DNA of 40,514 nucleotides, from IMG/VR virus record IMGVR_UViG_3300042731_001459, positions 1 to 40,514 of that record. One strand, given 5' to 3'. Each line of letters opens with the position of its first letter. Positions within the stretch are counted from its first letter, which is position 1. The stretch comes from a virus. A program made the translations under genes and the position numbers. Under the pieces are notes generated by a model. It was given only the letters and a program-made list of their open reading frames with translations. It had not been told where the DNA came from and ran no database searches. This document shows, in pieces, positions 14,211 through 40,433 of this stretch.

Positions 14211-15446
14211 GTGAAAAAGATTTTATGGATAGGAGACGGAGTTACACCTACAGGCTTTGCTACGGTAAATCATAATATAATCAAATATTTACCAGAAGAG
14301 GAGTATGAGGTTCACCACATAGCGATTAACTACTTTGGAGACCCTCATTCATACAAGCATAAGATTTATCCAGCAAGCAACCCACAAAGTATGCGAGTGG
14401 GAGACCTTTACGGATATAATCGAATTGGGGAATTTGTAAACAAAGACATAGACATGATTTTTATTCTCAATGATATTTGGGTTATCACCCAGTATCTAGA
14501 GATTATCAAACAGCTCTTTGGAGAAAACATTCCTAAACTTGTTGTATACTTTCCTGTAGATGGAGCAGGTTACGATAGAGAGTGGTTCACAAATTTTGAC
14601 ATTGTAACCAAAGTCGTGGTCTATACGGAATTTGGAAAAGCGGTAGTACTGGACGCATATCCAGAACTGCAAGAAAAGCTAGAAGTAATTCCTCACGGAA
14701 ACGACACAAAAACCTTTTACCCTGTAGAGGATAAACTTAAACTACGAAAGGAAACTTTCGACAAAATTCCCGAACTTTGGGAAGAAGATGCCTTTATCGT
14801 ACTAAACGCAAATAGAAACCAGCCAAGAAAAAGAATAGATTTATCTCTTAGAGGCTTTGCTTTGTTTGCGGCTAAGAAACCAAAGAATGTACGATACTAT
14901 CATCACGCTGGATTGAAGGATGCAGGTTGGGATATTCTGAGCTTGGTAAAACAAATAGACAGGGACTTCTTTAAACTCGGACTGTTAGAGGATGGGGATA
15001 CCCTTTTACAAGACAGAATTATTGTAACCAATCTTGAGAAACAGGTACAAAAAGTACCTATCGAAAAGTTAAATGAAGTTTACAATCTTTGTAATGTGGG
15101 AATCAACACTTCGTTGGGAGAGGGTTGGGGATTAATATCTACGGAACATGCAGCAACAAGAGCTGCACAAGTAGTTCCAAATCATACAGCATGTGCTGAG
15201 CTTTTCCATGACTGCGGAATACTTGTAGATATAAGACAGACTGTAAATGACAAAGACACTCTACTAGCTAGAAGCTTTGTAGATATAGTTAGCCTAGCTA
15301 ACGGATTAGAAGCTCTCTACAAGGATAAAAAATTGAGAGAAGAGCTGGCTGAGAAAGCTTATAAAAAGTTTACATCTGACGCATACAATTGGAAAAACAT
15401 AGCTAAAACATGGAACAAAATTTTCAAGGATGTTCTATCAGAATAA
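14211..15446 (+). CDS. GT4-type glycosyltransferase
   Basis: GTG 14211 follows AAAGGAGAGGAAT. The 411-residue protein has a GT-B layout: N-terminal WIGDGVTPTGFATVNHN, a central VIPHGND (159-164), and the donor-site EX7E motif as EGWGLISTE (Glu304, Glu312). GT4 enzymes transfer a sugar from a nucleotide-sugar with retention. Located inside the morphogenesis operon and close to a sulfotransferase-like gene and a repeat fibre, it probably glycosylates a virion protein rather than phage DNA. The target is inferred. Confidence 0.88.
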   Translation: MKKILWIGDGVTPTGFATVNHNIIKYLPEEEYEVHHIAINYFGDPHSYKHKIYPASNPQSMRVGDLYGYNRIGEFVNKDIDMIFILNDIWVITQYLEIIKQLFGENIPKLVVYFPVDGAGYDREWFTNFDIVTKVVVYTEFGKAVVLDAYPELQEKLEVIPHGNDTKTFYPVEDKLKLRKETFDKIPELWEEDAFIVLNANRNQPRKRIDLSLRGFALFAAKKPKNVRYYHHAGLKDAGWDILSLVKQIDRDFFKLGLLEDGDTLLQDRIIVTNLEKQVQKVPIEKLNEVYNLCNVGINTSLGEGWGLISTEHAATRAAQVVPNHTACAELFHDCGILVDIRQTVNDKDTLLARSFVDIVSLANGLEALYKDKKLREELAEKAYKKFTSDAYNWKNIAKTWNKIFKDVLSE

Positions 15447-15464: not shown

Positions 15465-16007
15465 ATGCTAAAGAGAGATAAAATGAGAATTACTGGAAAG
15501 GTTACTGCTATTGTTCGTGATAAAGATGGCAATATTAAAAGACATGCTCCGAATTGGTGGCAAAAACTTCTAGGTCTTCCCGGTAGCTTAATGATTTCTG
15601 TAAATCATAATATTGTTACCAATGAGGGAGATGCCCTTGTTGCTGACCTTCTTCAAGAAACTCCAGAAAGAACCAAAGTAGACAATGCTAATGGTGTTAT
15701 CGGAGTTGGTACTGGGTTTACTACAGAAGCTAAAACAGTAGATGCCCTTGTTACACAGACTGGTTCAGACGAGGCAATGGACGCAACTTACCCACAAACT
15801 AAGGGAGCTTGGGCAGCAGCCGATGATAATGTAATTGTTTACCGTTCAACTTTTGAAGCTGGAGACTTAAATGATACAGGTATTGACGAAGCCTTACTAG
15901 GTAATGGTACAGATACTATGGCTTATGCTCAAATTTCACCAGCCGTAGATGTAACTACCGCAGATACACTAGAAGTTACTTGGGAGATTACTTATCTAGG
16001 TTCGTAA
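15465..16007 (+). CDS. Putative virion structural protein, 180 aa
   Basis: ATG 15465 follows GCAGGAGAAAACA. A basic N terminus (MLKRDKMRITGKV) leads to a Gly/Ala/Thr-rich beta domain with VTNEGDALVADLL near residue 51 and VGTGFTTEAKTVDALV. This pattern resembles small phage structural proteins found near connectors or fibres. Placed between the two glycan enzymes, it is one candidate substrate. No enzymatic motif seen. Confidence 0.6.
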   Translation: MLKRDKMRITGKVTAIVRDKDGNIKRHAPNWWQKLLGLPGSLMISVNHNIVTNEGDALVADLLQETPERTKVDNANGVIGVGTGFTTEAKTVDALVTQTGSDEAMDATYPQTKGAWAAADDNVIVYRSTFEAGDLNDTGIDEALLGNGTDTMAYAQISPAVDVTTADTLEVTWEITYLGS

Positions 16008-16702
16008 TGATTACTACATTTCTCTACAATATGGGAAGAGTTGGTAGTAATTCCATAAACAGAGCCCTTTATGATAACGGGGTTAATACCCTTCATGCTC
16101 ATTGGCTCAGTGGGGAATTTCCAGAAGCCGAGTTTGCAACCACTAAAGAAAAGATTGTACGGCTTCTTCAAAAAGATGAAGCCCCACCACTAAAAATTAT
16201 AGTTCCAATTAGAGAACCAATGGCTAGAAATCTTTCAGCCTTTGTATTCAATTCTATAAAATATGGAATAAGTGGAAGACAGGAAACTCCAGAAGAACTT
16301 CAATCACTATTCATAGAAAGGTATAATATACACTTTCCTGATTTGTGGTTTGAACGGGAACTAATGAAGAACCTATCTTTTGACCCATTTAAGAAAAAGT
16401 TCAATTATCGAAAAGGGTATAAGTTTTATAGAGCTGGTAAACACAAACTAGTTATACTAAGGCTGGAAAACGCAGAAAGAGCTTTTCCTAAAATAGCTAA
16501 GAAGTTTCTTGGAATTAGAGGAGCTTCACTACCACACAAGAGTAATCTAGAAACCAAAAAGTATATTGGTGCTAAGTATAAGAAACTAAAAGAACTAACA
16601 TATCCAAAAGATTTTGTAGAGAGAGTCTACAATTTGAAGTATGTTAGTCACTTCTACACAGAGGAAGAGATAGAGGAACTTACGAAAAAATGGACAACGT
16701 AG
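16007..16702 (+). CDS. Sulfotransferase-like / capsule-type enzyme
   Basis: ATG 16007 overlaps the previous stop as TAATG; the longer frame upstream is internal to the previous gene. The 231-residue protein begins with MITTFLYNMGRVGSNSI, a glycine-rich loop like the 5'-phosphosulfate loop of sulfotransferases, and has PIREPMARNLSAF (67-79), typical of sulfotransferase-like capsular polysaccharide proteins. It would use PAPS to sulfate a glycan, but no PAPS synthesis gene is visible. Partnering with the glycosyltransferase is inferred. Confidence 0.72.
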   Translation: MITTFLYNMGRVGSNSINRALYDNGVNTLHAHWLSGEFPEAEFATTKEKIVRLLQKDEAPPLKIIVPIREPMARNLSAFVFNSIKYGISGRQETPEELQSLFIERYNIHFPDLWFERELMKNLSFDPFKKKFNYRKGYKFYRAGKHKLVILRLENAERAFPKIAKKFLGIRGASLPHKSNLETKKYIGAKYKKLKELTYPKDFVERVYNLKYVSHFYTEEEIEELTKKWTT

Positions 16703-17061: not shown

Positions 17062-19161
17062 ATGGCACAACCCGTCTATACACAAGCTGACTGTGCTTTT
17101 TATAATGACGGTACTGAGGCTGGAAGTACTCTTATTTCTGGTGGCAATATCATCGTAGGGAATACAGGTGCAGAGGATAAAGCCTTTGATACCACAATTC
17201 TCTTTAGAGCCCTTATTCAACTAACAGAGAAAACAGAATCTAATACTTTTGATTTACTTATACAAAAGAATAATACTGGCGGTTATGATACCAGAGCTAA
17301 CATTACAGGCATTACAGCCATTGATTCTGCCAACCTGACTAGAGGAGATGACACTACTCAGAGGCTAGGTTCTGGCACATTTGATGCCACTAATGCAGGT
17401 GTTGGAGATAATAGTACAACTGTTAGTGAATCATTTACCCTAAATCAAGAATGGGAAGTTTTATTTTCATTTGAAGTTGATGAAGCAGATGTAGTTGATG
17501 GTGATTTCTTTGACTTACGAGTATATCAAGATGACGGTTCTACAGCCTTAAATGCCTATTCGGAAACTCTAAGAGTCACTGTAGCTAAAGGTGGAGCTAG
17601 TCTTCAAAGAACTCTTTCAGACTCAGTAGGCATTACAGACACACTAATAACTTCTAGAGCGTTGGCTAGAACAAATACAGATACCGTAGGAATTACAGAC
17701 ACAATTTCAGCGGCAGTTGGTAAAATAGTAGCACTTGCCGATACTGTAGGCATTACAGACACAATTTCTACAGTTGTTGGAAAGGTAGTAGCTATTGTAG
17801 ATTCAGTAGGGATTACAGATGCTATTACCAATGCTAGAAACTTGGCTAAGACTATTTCTGACAACGTGGGAATCACGGATGCCCTATCTAACGCTAGAGC
17901 TTTGTACAGAACATTAACAGAGAATGTCGGCATTACGGATACCATTACTACAGCAAGGGGACTTTACAGAACAGTTACGGATTCAGTTGGAATTACAGAT
18001 ACAGTATCAAGAAGCTTAGTTCTTCTAGCGTCTATTTCTGATACTGTAGGAATTACAGACTCCGTTACAACTTCTATAACAAGAGCTCTACTGTTGCAAG
18101 ATTCTGTAGGAATTACAGATTCTTTGAGCACCGCTAGGATAATTGTTAAGTCTATTGCAGATTCAGTCGGCATTACTGATACAGTAAATACAGCCCGTAG
18201 TCTATATGTAACCTTCTCGGATACTGTTGGAATTACGGACAACCTTACAAGAAGTCTTGTTATTTTCGCAAGTATCACAGATTCGGTGGGAATTACAGAC
18301 AGTCTAACACGGTCTATTGCTAAAGCAATTACAGTACAAGATACTGTTGGAGTTACAGATTCCTTAACTACAGCAAGAGCAATTGTTAAGCTTATTTCTG
18401 ATAGTGTCGGCATTACAGACGCACTAACTACAGCAAGAAACCTTGTTGTCAGCTTTGCAGATTCAGTCGGTATAACAGATGCGATAGATGCTGTCAAAGG
18501 AGCATCTACAAAGTATGTCAATATATCTGACTCAGTAGGCATAACAGATAATCTATCTACGTCAAGGGAACTCAAAAGAACCTTCCTAGAAAGTATGGGT
18601 ATTACGGATGACTTAGCACTGGCTAGGGAAATCAAAAGAACTTTCTCTGAAAGTGTAGGGATTACCGATACACTAACAAGTGTAAAGAAGATAGCAATTT
18701 TACTTGCAGATACAGTAGGTATTGTGGATAACCTGTTTACAGCTCGTGCTGTAGCTGTGACTCTAGCGGAGAATATGGGCATTACAGATGACCTACAAAA
18801 CGCTAGAAAACTGTATAGAAGTATTTCAGATGTTGTAGATACTACAGATTTACTTGGAACTGCACGAAATATTGTCCTAATTCTTATAGATGCAGTTGGT
18901 ATAACCGACAATATTACCACGATTCGTGGTATAATAGTTAATATAGTGGATACTGTAAGCATTACAGATTCATTGACAAACCTTAGAGGAATTGTAATAA
19001 CAATTACAGACACAGTTGGAATCACCGATGTTCTGTCTACAGTAGTGACTGGAATTGGAAGAGCTATAAGAAGAGGAACACGAGCAATTTTCGGAAATCC
19101 TGATGGTTGGAGACCAACACTACAATCTCCAGACTATGATGATGATATTCCTAGGGAGTAA
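17062..19161 (+). CDS. Repeat fibre protein with 24 VGITD repeats
   Basis: A 699-residue protein starts at ATG 17062 behind AGGAGTAGCCA. Residues 1-185 form a beta-rich N-terminal domain (many Gly, Thr, Asn). About residues 187-669 consist of 24 copies of a near 20-residue unit, consensus D-[ST]-V-G-I-T-D-x-[LIV]-x-x-A-R. The tail is basic, then acidic (RAIRRGTRAIFG, then PDYDDDIPRE). It lies between head connectors and neck genes, so I infer a rod-like head or neck appendage. Its Ser/Thr content makes it a plausible target of the neighbouring glycan enzymes. Confidence 0.75.
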   Translation: MAQPVYTQADCAFYNDGTEAGSTLISGGNIIVGNTGAEDKAFDTTILFRALIQLTEKTESNTFDLLIQKNNTGGYDTRANITGITAIDSANLTRGDDTTQRLGSGTFDATNAGVGDNSTTVSESFTLNQEWEVLFSFEVDEADVVDGDFFDLRVYQDDGSTALNAYSETLRVTVAKGGASLQRTLSDSVGITDTLITSRALARTNTDTVGITDTISAAVGKIVALADTVGITDTISTVVGKVVAIVDSVGITDAITNARNLAKTISDNVGITDALSNARALYRTLTENVGITDTITTARGLYRTVTDSVGITDTVSRSLVLLASISDTVGITDSVTTSITRALLLQDSVGITDSLSTARIIVKSIADSVGITDTVNTARSLYVTFSDTVGITDNLTRSLVIFASITDSVGITDSLTRSIAKAITVQDTVGVTDSLTTARAIVKLISDSVGITDALTTARNLVVSFADSVGITDAIDAVKGASTKYVNISDSVGITDNLSTSRELKRTFLESMGITDDLALAREIKRTFSESVGITDTLTSVKKIAILLADTVGIVDNLFTARAVAVTLAENMGITDDLQNARKLYRSISDVVDTTDLLGTARNIVLILIDAVGITDNITTIRGIIVNIVDTVSITDSLTNLRGIVITITDTVGITDVLSTVVTGIGRAIRRGTRAIFGNPDGWRPTLQSPDYDDDIPRE
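17620..19068 (+). repeat. 24 tandem coding repeats of 60 bases
   Basis: Units start every 60 bases from 17620, each beginning with the Asp or Glu before [ST]VGITD. Unit 15 (from 18460) carries three extra codons. Units diverge in sequence, but GTAGG(A/C)ATTACAGA recurs. Units 7-10 (17980-18219) and 11-14 (18220-18459) match as two 240-base blocks in protein sequence, which shows growth by block duplication. Confidence 0.9.
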
Positions 19162-37883: not shown

Positions 37884-38237
37884 GTGAGTGATGCTAAAAA
37901 CACTAAGCGACATATTGATATACTTATTCAATTCACCTCTGTCCTTCTTTTCGGACTCTGTGTGGCACTGGGTTGTATCAGCCTGTTTGGGTTGGTTGGT
38001 ATTTCGCCGGATGTTGACCACATCATTTGCGCTCTTATATTTCCTAGAACGTGGAATCCAGAAGAAGGTCAATTCGGTTGTCGTCTTGCTCATGGTCTTA
38101 TCCTGCCTATTAGTAGCTTTATCGGCGGTATGGGCATCACATTATGGCTTGGATTATGGCTACGATACGCCTTTAGACCCCCCGCTGAAGATAAGACCCC
38201 CACAAACATAAGGAGAAAAAATGGTAAAAATTATTGA
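37884..38237 (+). CDS. Membrane protein with SPDVDH motif (frame A), possible holin
   Basis: GTG 37884 opens a 117-codon frame with three hydrophobic stretches (VLLFGLCVALGCISLFGLVG, GLILPISSFIGGMGITLWLG and others), a SPDVDH motif near residue 42 and LAHG near residue 69. DxDH and a later His resemble membrane-bound metal-dependent hydrolase-like proteins. By hand count about three-fifths of codons begin with a purine, better than the competing frame. It overlaps the endolysin start by 17 bases. The start lacks a good ribosome site. Confidence 0.55.
   Translation: MSDAKNTKRHIDILIQFTSVLLFGLCVALGCISLFGLVGISPDVDHIICALIFPRTWNPEEGQFGCRLAHGLILPISSFIGGMGITLWLGLWLRYAFRPPAEDKTPTNIRRKNGKNY
37891..38211 (+). 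CDS. Alternative overlapping membrane ORF (frame B)
   Basis: ATG 37891 has AAGGTG at good spacing and ends (38211) just before the endolysin ribosome site, a neat fit. It encodes 106 residues with hydrophobic segments (WHWVVSACLGWLVF, SVVVLLMVLSCLLVALSAVW). Only about two-fifths of its codons begin with a purine, so it may be a shadow of frame A, or both may be expressed as overlapping genes. Confidence 0.35.
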   Translation: MLKTLSDILIYLFNSPLSFFSDSVWHWVVSACLGWLVFRRMLTTSFALLYFLERGIQKKVNSVVVLLMVLSCLLVALSAVWASHYGLDYGYDTPLDPPLKIRPPQT

Positions 38238-39588
38238 CACCTCACATCACAAAGGATACATTGATTGGCAACAAGTTAAAAACTACGGTATAGAGGGAGT
38301 TATTCAAAAGTGTTCCGATGGTTGGTTTATGCCTGATGATATGAACAAGGCTTCATACACTCAGCACATAGACCCATCTTTCAGACTCTATTGGAAATCT
38401 CTAGAAGATATGTTCTCTTGGAGAGGTGCGTATCATTTTCTAAGGGTAGATGATGAACTTGCTATAGAGAATGAGAGACCTACCAGCTTAGAGCAAGTAG
38501 ATGTCTTTTATGAGGCTATGGTAGAAGAGGGACTCAACTACGATGACTACGTAATTTTAGATATAGAAGAACCCCCAAGTAACATCAGTTACCTATCTCC
38601 AAGTACAATAGCTGACAGAGTTACCGCAGTAATTCAAAAGACTACCGAGCTATTCAAAAGAAAACCCATCCTGTATACAGGGGCTTGGTGGTGGGATTAT
38701 TACAAAGATTACTTTGACCACAGCTTTGTGCAAGACCAGTTATTTTGGATGTCACATTACTGGGCGATTGACCACTCAACAAATGAGTTTCTAAACCAAT
38801 CACCAAAGTACTACATAAGGGAAGAGAGACTTTTCCCACATGCTTGGTTGGACGATTTGAATGATAGAATAGCTTATTGTAGAGTACCAGTAATACGAAG
38901 AAGTACAGGAGAGGAAATCTCCGCTATCAATAAGAATAAGGCTGTAATGTGGCAGTATTCTTCAAGTGGTAACATTCCGGGTATCCATGATGGAAAAGGA
39001 TGGGTAGATATAAGTATAGCAATCAGACCAGAAGAAACTTGGACTGAGGCTAGAGCAGAAGAACCAGAACCACCAACAGGAGGAGAAATGGGAGTATTAG
39101 AAGATATTAGAGCAGAGCTAGAAAAACACACAACACTGCTAGAAGAAATAAGCGGTAAGCTGGAAGGGGGCGGTGGAACAGACCCCGGTAATGGGGGAGG
39201 TACACCAGAACCAACTACAGTTGGAGTACGGGTAGATAGAGGTGGAAAACAAGTTTACACCTTCTGTGTCGGTGCTTATAACGCAAAGAACAAGCTGGAA
39301 CTTGAAGACGGTATTGTGGTACTTGCGAGAGACCCAAGAGGTTTCCCCGTATTCGTTATCTACCCCTCAAATACTTCAGAAGTGGGGGAAAGAGTATTCG
39401 TAGAATCAATGAGTGTTGTACAGGTCTATCCTGAAGCGGTGCTAGGAGACGGTGGGTGGAAAGCCTACAGAATAGATAAGTCTCAACTAGTTCCAAAAAC
39501 AGGTAGTGCCTCTATCCCTACAGTAGATGGGGATGGAAATGAGATTGAATTGTTTATTAGAGAAGACTTTGTAGTGGAGTTTGTATAA
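38221..39588 (+). CDS. GH25 muramidase endolysin
   Basis: ATG 38221 follows AAGGAGAAAAA. Residues 1-285 are a glycoside hydrolase 25 (lysozyme) domain: DTSHHKGYIDW at 6-16, and ILDIEE (Asp114, Glu116 the likely catalytic pair), WMSHYW and VMWQYSS. Residues 293-315 form a coiled coil (ILE/LEU heptads in DIRAELEKHTTLLEEISGKL), a Gly/Pro linker follows, and 345-455 is a beta-rich C-terminal domain of unknown type, likely wall binding. It cuts peptidoglycan to release progeny. An internal start at 39088 may yield the C-terminal part alone. Confidence 0.88.
   Translation: MVKIIDTSHHKGYIDWQQVKNYGIEGVIQKCSDGWFMPDDMNKASYTQHIDPSFRLYWKSLEDMFSWRGAYHFLRVDDELAIENERPTSLEQVDVFYEAMVEEGLNYDDYVILDIEEPPSNISYLSPSTIADRVTAVIQKTTELFKRKPILYTGAWWWDYYKDYFDHSFVQDQLFWMSHYWAIDHSTNEFLNQSPKYYIREERLFPHAWLDDLNDRIAYCRVPVIRRSTGEEISAINKNKAVMWQYSSSGNIPGIHDGKGWVDISIAIRPEETWTEARAEEPEPPTGGEMGVLEDIRAELEKHTTLLEEISGKLEGGGGTDPGNGGGTPEPTTVGVRVDRGGKQVYTFCVGAYNAKNKLELEDGIVVLARDPRGFPVFVIYPSNTSEVGERVFVESMSVVQVYPEAVLGDGGWKAYRIDKSQLVPKTGSASIPTVDGDGNEIELFIREDFVVEFV
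39078..39085 (+). promoter_or_regulatory. Candidate internal Shine-Dalgarno in the endolysin gene
   Basis: AGGAGGAG lies just before in-frame ATG 39088. Spacing from AGGAGG is about four bases, slightly short. The same bases code for Gly-Gly-Glu in a linker, so the match could be chance. Confidence 0.42.
39088..39588 (+). CDS. Possible nested C-terminal endolysin subunit
   Basis: In-frame ATG at codon 290, behind AGGAGGAG, would start a 166-residue product at the junction between catalytic domain and coiled coil (MGVLEDIRAELEKH). It would hold only the coiled coil, linker and C-terminal domain. Known endolysins such as Lys170 use an internal start to make extra binding subunits that assemble with the full protein. 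Here it is inferred. Confidence 0.42.
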   Translation: MGVLEDIRAELEKHTTLLEEISGKLEGGGGTDPGNGGGTPEPTTVGVRVDRGGKQVYTFCVGAYNAKNKLELEDGIVVLARDPRGFPVFVIYPSNTSEVGERVFVESMSVVQVYPEAVLGDGGWKAYRIDKSQLVPKTGSASIPTVDGDGNEIELFIREDFVVEFV

Positions 39589-40433
39589 TGAAAAAAGCAT
39601 TGATAGTTGGTATCAACGATTATCCACAAAGTACAAATGATTTGCAGGGCTGTGTCAATGACGCATATGACTGGGCACAGGTCTTAGGAAGTAAGTTTGG
39701 CTTTGAGTATGAGTTCCTTCTGGATTCGGAAGCGACCAAAGAAGCAATTCTATCCAGACTACATGCTCTTATTTCTGAAGCTACAACAGGGGATGTAGTA
39801 GTCTTTACTTATTCTGGACATGGTACACAAGTCCTAGACCAAGGGACAGATGAACCAGATAGCTATGATGAAGCCCTTTACGTATATGATGGTTTGTTGC
39901 TAGATGATGAACTGAGAGCAGTATTCGATAGACTTCATCCAGATGCAACCGCCTATGCAGTGATTGATTCCTGCTTTAGCGGTACAGCTACTCGTGCTAT
40001 TGTAAACGGCAAACCACGCTATGTAGAATTACAAAAGATTCCTTGGGGAGCGTCACCGAGTAAACGCTTCATGCAAGAAGAGGATATGGTAGAGTTACTA
40101 CTAAGTGGTAGTGCTGAAGATGAGTATGCTTATGATGCGCTGATTAACGAGAGGTATAATGGGGCAATGAGTTACTACGCCACAAGGATTCTCAACCTGA
40201 ATACAGAGATAACTTGGGAGAACTTTTACGCAAAGCTTAGAGAAAACCTACCAAGTCCAAACTTACCGCAAACTCCTCAACTAGAGGGGCGTGAAGAAGT
40301 AAAGAAGAGGAAAGCACTTACAGGCAAACAAGCTCCAGTTGTAGAACTACCCTCTAAGTTAGGGTACTATATACTGGGAGGTGTGGGAATCCTGTTGTTA
40401 ATTCTCTTTGTGTATGGGCTATTCATAGCGTAG
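39588..40433 (+). CDS. Caspase-like (metacaspase, C14) protease with C-terminal membrane anchor
   Basis: ATG 39588 overlaps the endolysin stop as TAATG, with GGAG upstream. The 281-residue protein has the caspase-hemoglobinase layout: ALIVGINDYP and LQGCVNDAYDW at the N terminus, TYSGHGTQ with catalytic His78, a DEPDSYDEALYVYDG segment and LLDDEL, then AVIDSCFSGT with Cys129. Both dyad residues are intact. The C terminus ends in one hydrophobic span (about 259-281, GYYILGGVGILLLILFVYG), so it would be tail-anchored with the protease in the cytoplasm. Target and role are unknown. Confidence 0.88.
   Translation: MKKALIVGINDYPQSTNDLQGCVNDAYDWAQVLGSKFGFEYEFLLDSEATKEAILSRLHALISEATTGDVVVFTYSGHGTQVLDQGTDEPDSYDEALYVYDGLLLDDELRAVFDRLHPDATAYAVIDSCFSGTATRAIVNGKPRYVELQKIPWGASPSKRFMQEEDMVELLLSGSAEDEYAYDALINERYNGAMSYYATRILNLNTEITWENFYAKLRENLPSPNLPQTPQLEGREEVKKRKALTGKQAPVVELPSKLGYYILGGVGILLLILFVYGLFIA

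Follow-up and report, generated by a model that had tools for sequence, protein, structure and literature searches.

The window analysed here, a virus record of 40,514 bp, encodes terminase, portal and tape-measure genes, which identify it as a tailed phage. Towards its end, the following features lie on the same strand:

37884..38237, + strand: candidate holin, a small multi-span membrane ORF of 117 aa with a GTG start, recognised by its hydrophobic spans only
38221..39588, + strand: GH25 endolysin of 455 aa (PF01183, E=1e-18; matches to PHROG endolysin families, category lysis)
39576..39590, + strand: Shine-Dalgarno-like GGAG (39576-39579) and TAATG stop/start overlap (39586-39590), read from the sequence
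39588..40433, + strand: membrane-anchored metacaspase-like protease, Peptidase C14, 281 aa, ATG start (PF00656, fold and sequence matches)
39819..39821, + strand: codon of the catalytic His78, motif YSGHG, invariant in alignments A1 and A6
39972..39974, + strand: codon of the catalytic Cys129, motif DSCFSG, invariant in alignments A1 and A6
40353..40427, + strand: predicted C-terminal transmembrane helix (tail anchor), residues 256-280 (hydrophobicity, model and basic linker)

The stop codon of the endolysin gene and the start codon of the caspase gene share one base, the A of TAATG (GTATAATGAAA), and the coupling of the two genes claimed in the original prediction can thus be read directly from this overlap, with the PF01183 match upstream. 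By the criterion of an adjacent or overlapping endolysin gene in the same direction, the GH25 gene marks the region as a phage lysis cassette. A long linker follows the catalytic domain of the GH25 protein, which had no match in deposited phages; in the search of 50 records, GH25 was matched by this protein alone. The candidate holin ORF terminates within the start of the endolysin gene and gave no Pfam or PHROG match, and since it is overlapped in another frame by a second ORF (37888-38211), the holin gene call is unsure. The gene 3′ of the caspase gene runs off the record end. Elsewhere in the window, glycosyltransferase-like and sulfotransferase-like ORFs, judged by eye, lie among the structural genes (14211-15446 and 15980-16702). 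Long proteins made of short repeats occur on several caspase-bearing phage contigs (window 17062-19161, repeat DSVGITD; L004:12013-14145; L002:2-898), and in L002 and L004 they are close to the caspase.

We found that the 281-aa product matches the Pfam family PF00656 (Peptidase_C14) well above the cut-off (E=1.8e-24, 87.2 bits, cut-off 21.4), with residues 2-234 covering profile positions 2-225 of 233; this nearly full-length domain confirms the predicted membership of the caspase family. In a sequence search of the PDB, its nearest matches were GSU0716 (3bij), Yca1 and plant metacaspase 4. An AlphaFold2 model built with 30 relatives reached a mean pLDDT of 85.5 and a pTM of 0.80, the loops within residues 132-159 being weak, and a Foldseek search with this model gave GSU0716 (3bij) as the best PDB match (E 2.9e-16), followed by plant metacaspases (E about 1e-14 to 1e-12), which rank above MALT1 and the caspases. 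Structure prediction, one of the checks that had been suggested, therefore returned a metacaspase fold. A p10-like region is also present, as residues 170-234 align with residues 275-338 of Yca1, and the strands and helices of the model run on to residue 239. In cyanobacterial usage, an orthocaspase is a protein without the p10-like subdomain (PMC7475262), and we rejected this label for the window caspase because the region is there.

The His78/Cys129 dyad is intact, as had been claimed, with both residues invariant in alignments A1 and A6, and the Cys motif is kept in 60 of the 61 long viral caspases. The S1 site of TbMCA2 is formed by Asp95 and Asp211 (PMC4357240), to which Asp25 (motif GCVND) and Asp127 (motif DSC) of the window caspase, both invariant, correspond when mapped by motif, so that cleavage after Arg or Lys would be expected. 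With the four-Asp Ca2+ site of TbMCA2 (173, 189, 190 and 220) as the reference for a mapping by motif spacing, Asp94, Asp106 and Asp107 are kept and the fourth position is Arg136; the site being incomplete, we do not class the window caspase as a Ca2+-dependent metacaspase. A Ca2+ influx through the holin was considered as a trigger and rejected, given Arg136 at the fourth site Asp and the Ca2+-independence of the cyanobacterial MaOC1. Overall, the protein resembles type I metacaspases and other C14B homologs (Yca1, TbMCA2, GSU0716/3bij) in its catalytic dyad, S1 acids, p20 and p10-like regions and fold, whereas it lacks their N-terminal prodomain, carries Arg136 in the Ca2+ site, and has a C-terminal transmembrane anchor and a phage lysis setting.

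A single hydrophobic span covers residues 262-280 (mean Kyte-Doolittle 2.73), and the model has residues 256-280 as one helix, in agreement with the single C-terminal transmembrane span described originally. As the linker before this helix is basic (seven K/R against four D/E) and a hydrophobic N-terminus is absent, the catalytic domain is likely cytosolic. C-terminal spans were also found in L007, in the cellular sequences L056-L059 and in a separate huge-phage clade. A tail-anchored phage caspase in a lysis cluster had been called unusual; the anchor itself stands, but it is not peculiar to phages, being shared by L056-L059. These four, from KSB1, Calditrichota, unclassified bacterium and Bacteroidota contigs, are the closest sequences found (52-56% identity to the window caspase) and have the same length and C-terminal span, while, in contrast to the phage, an endolysin is absent from the neighbouring genes read. 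Some cyanobacterial metacaspases bear a C-terminal transmembrane helix (PMC3501461), and such cyanobacterial and other bacterial metacaspases or orthocaspases would, like the window caspase, combine a membrane tail with a C14 domain predicted to be cytosolic.

Membrane association may take other forms among the phage proteins. The L170 caspase has a lipoprotein-like N-terminus and the L016 caspase an N-terminal membrane span; on the latter viral contig (L016:1366-5165), a Lon protease, the caspase and a GH24 lysozyme are consecutive. Our impression from inspection is that several others have a short N-terminal stretch of aromatic or amphipathic character, MCKFLSNLF being an example. Sequence inspection revealed no clear membrane anchor in the L006, L047 and L171 caspases, and the L006 protein (L006:10001-10966, from a contractile-tail phage) ends, by eye, in a short SAP-like domain with no membrane span.

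The original prediction held that few such proteases are known in phages. This is right for deposited phage records, two of 50,697 having a caspase homolog (LR745208 and, partial, MT835687), but viral contigs hold more: at least 63 non-redundant caspase loci were recovered from IMG/VR by pattern scans, a minimum that depends on the patterns used. Terminase matches in 27 of 50 records support many caspase-bearing contigs as tailed phages; some may instead be prophages or misbinned, since the L018 caspase is the same as that of L118, a contig assigned to a bacterial genome. All named BFVD matches at E<1e-3 belong to giant eukaryotic viruses, whose caspases and metacaspases are likewise virus-borne and alike in their C14 fold, but with eukaryotic hosts and a separate context. 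In a synteny check against the first 135 loci, one methyltransferase-like ORF of the window matched besides the caspase, and the window terminase matched one distant record; with synteny so scant, a close relative of the window phage was not found. In the open-licence literature, we found no prior report of phage caspases, of metacaspases paired with endolysins or of jumbo-phage caspases, and a jumbo-phage survey does not mention caspases (PMC7824862).

We then looked at the genes around the phage caspases. Nine directly adjoin an endolysin, all nine on the same strand and five with overlapping genes, and their endolysins fall into six unrelated families: GH25, GH24/PF00959, PF11860, Amidase_2, M15 and NlpC/P60. 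By Pfam, these are GH25 in the window, PF11860 in L006, PF00959 in L016 and L136, PF01510 in L138 and L167, PF13539 in L047 and NLPC_P60 with PG_binding_1 in L171, and the endolysin of L140 was assigned by a PHROG endolysin family match (the loci L035, L033 and L021 were fetched again as L136, L138 and L171, respectively). Candidate endolysins were first noticed beside many caspases on reading the neighbouring genes and then tested by profile. When matches above the cut-off to eight hydrolase families were counted in 50 whole records, eight of the 21 peptidoglycan-hydrolase matches adjoined the caspase, against 0.7-1.1 expected (P 4e-8 to 1.5e-6), five of the eight families having been picked after the neighbours had been seen. 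In a strict test, with the window, a single lineage duplicate and all records shorter than 20 kb removed, four adjacent hydrolases remained against 0.4-0.5 expected (P 6e-4 to 1.5e-3). Small membrane ORFs are likewise more frequent within two genes of the caspase (31/173) than in the comparison set (39/639, P=5e-6); holins called by eye near several caspases had no family support. Among the matches listed for 25 families, there was no peptidoglycan hydrolase either among random distant genes of the same loci or among the direct neighbours of cellular caspases.

It could be argued that the pairing arose by chance placement or is an artefact of post hoc family choice, given that the majority of the 63 phage caspases have no recognised endolysin as direct neighbour, that the families were partly chosen post hoc and that the contigs are fragmentary. 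Both sets of P values speak against this explanation, as do the scattered lineages and the exchanged endolysin described below, and we regard it as highly improbable. The survey for caspases beside lysozymes that had been proposed thus uncovered a recurrent pairing with non-homologous endolysins in scattered caspase lineages, and the link to lysis is stronger than could be known from the window.

In a caspase tree of 126 sequences, made by a quick method, the nine endolysin-adjacent caspases require eight label changes, at least five of them forced by well-supported branches; these caspases are scattered over the tree and belong to more than one lineage, the placement of the window caspase not being strongly supported. 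The related cassettes L138:9534-11758 and L140:319-2402 have the caspase, a lipoprotein and a small membrane ORF in common, with identities of 90% for the caspase and of 89% and 79% for the two genes after it. The endolysin 5′ of the caspase is an amidase in L138 and of M15 type in L140, with no detectable similarity, a clear case of endolysin exchange. Related phage caspases are under purifying selection, with dN/dS of 0.09-0.14 for three pairs (0.09 for L138/L140). The retention of the caspase while the hydrolase is swapped fits a gene that belongs functionally to the lysis module.

The same observations bear on a possible role in processing, in which the caspase would cut the endolysin or holin encoded next to it, as in a protease-effector gene pair. 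In favour of this, overlapping genes are made together and the GH25 protein has its long linker past the catalytic domain. However, the endolysins beside phage caspases are not homologous to one another, and their number includes short single-domain proteins (147-148 aa in L138 and L047), so that a common substrate site is not evident; the endolysin as common substrate is disfavoured for this reason, and we consider processing of either neighbour very unlikely. Four bacterial proteins are metacaspase-Amidase_2 fusions (PMC3501461); these are cellular, whereas in the phages the two activities are encoded by separate neighbouring genes, with varying endolysins.

A gene linked to an endolysin need not act in lysis, and accessory genes that serve other purposes can also reside in lysis regions. 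Such genes are familiar there, and C14 proteases are known from anti-phage defence. The caspase could be a moron-type gene beside the lysis genes, encoding an abortive-infection or superinfection-exclusion protease through which a phage kills its host cell or shuts out a competing phage, and in line with this the PADLOC 'caspase' model matches residues 4-133 of the window caspase (E=5e-16) and most phage caspases map away from any recognised endolysin. Against it stand the recurrence of the endolysin linkage across scattered lineages and the persistence of the caspase with the lipoprotein and small membrane ORF despite endolysin exchange. Furthermore, no sensor, gasdermin or other partner was seen in the ORFs read beside the window caspase, the next gene being incomplete. 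On balance, an exclusion function is unlikely, although it deserves serious consideration. Bacterial gasdermin systems offer a likeness, in that a C14-type protease is tied to cell death, but a gasdermin or sensor partner was not found beside the phage gene and no gasdermin is among the 25 families listed for the neighbours of phage caspases; with no such partner seen up to the truncated next gene, we did not adopt a gasdermin-type system. On the viral contig L055 (9621-9992), a more distant caspase probably adjoins a ThsB-type TIR protein, judging by a single TIR match in the neighbour scan, and some phage contigs may therefore hold caspases in defence settings.

Patchily distributed phage peptidases are thought to target host proteins (PMC7824862), and the caspase might similarly serve host takeover or counter-defence by cleaving proteins of the host or of its defences, with no specific part in lysis and a position of secondary importance. 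A second tail-anchored phage caspase clade (L030, L032, L034, L041, L045 and L159, several on contigs >100 kb), whose members share a conserved gene neighbourhood encoding ClpX-like, YkuD-like (weak), Hsp20 and ClpS proteins, would suit this explanation; we speculate that a caspase cut in this clade could yield N-terminal degrons for ClpS. Neither the enrichment of endolysins nor the gene overlap is predicted by a takeover function, which we judge to be rather improbable for the window caspase.

Among the roles proposed for the protein, lysis-associated action is favoured. The best-supported reading, which we put forward tentatively and with somewhat more doubt than confidence, is a late, membrane-tethered, Arg/Lys-type protease serving lysis or the final killing of the host. 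We infer that this C14B type I metacaspase-like cysteine protease would be produced late, alongside the lysis proteins, and that its tail would tether it to the host inner membrane on the cytoplasmic side. There, it would most likely cut membrane-located host or phage proteins after Arg or Lys during the holin/endolysin step, and this cleavage could contribute to cell killing or to the timing and completion of lysis.

It is possible, though doubtful, that several unrelated phage groups independently added a caspase, often membrane-targeted, to the lysis cassette, as an executioner-like proteolytic step alongside holin, endolysin and spanin. Peptidase C14 is a known protein family, while the recurrent lysis-cassette position of phage caspases appears to be new. 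If the lysis reading is right, caspase-type proteolysis would be a tool of phages in late infection, besides its part in the killing of infected bacteria by the host, and the caspase may add an extra step to lysis. The endolysin-caspase pairs, with their six endolysin families, form a testable set, and the finding bears on the origin of viral and bacterial caspases as well as on the function of bacterial metacaspases.
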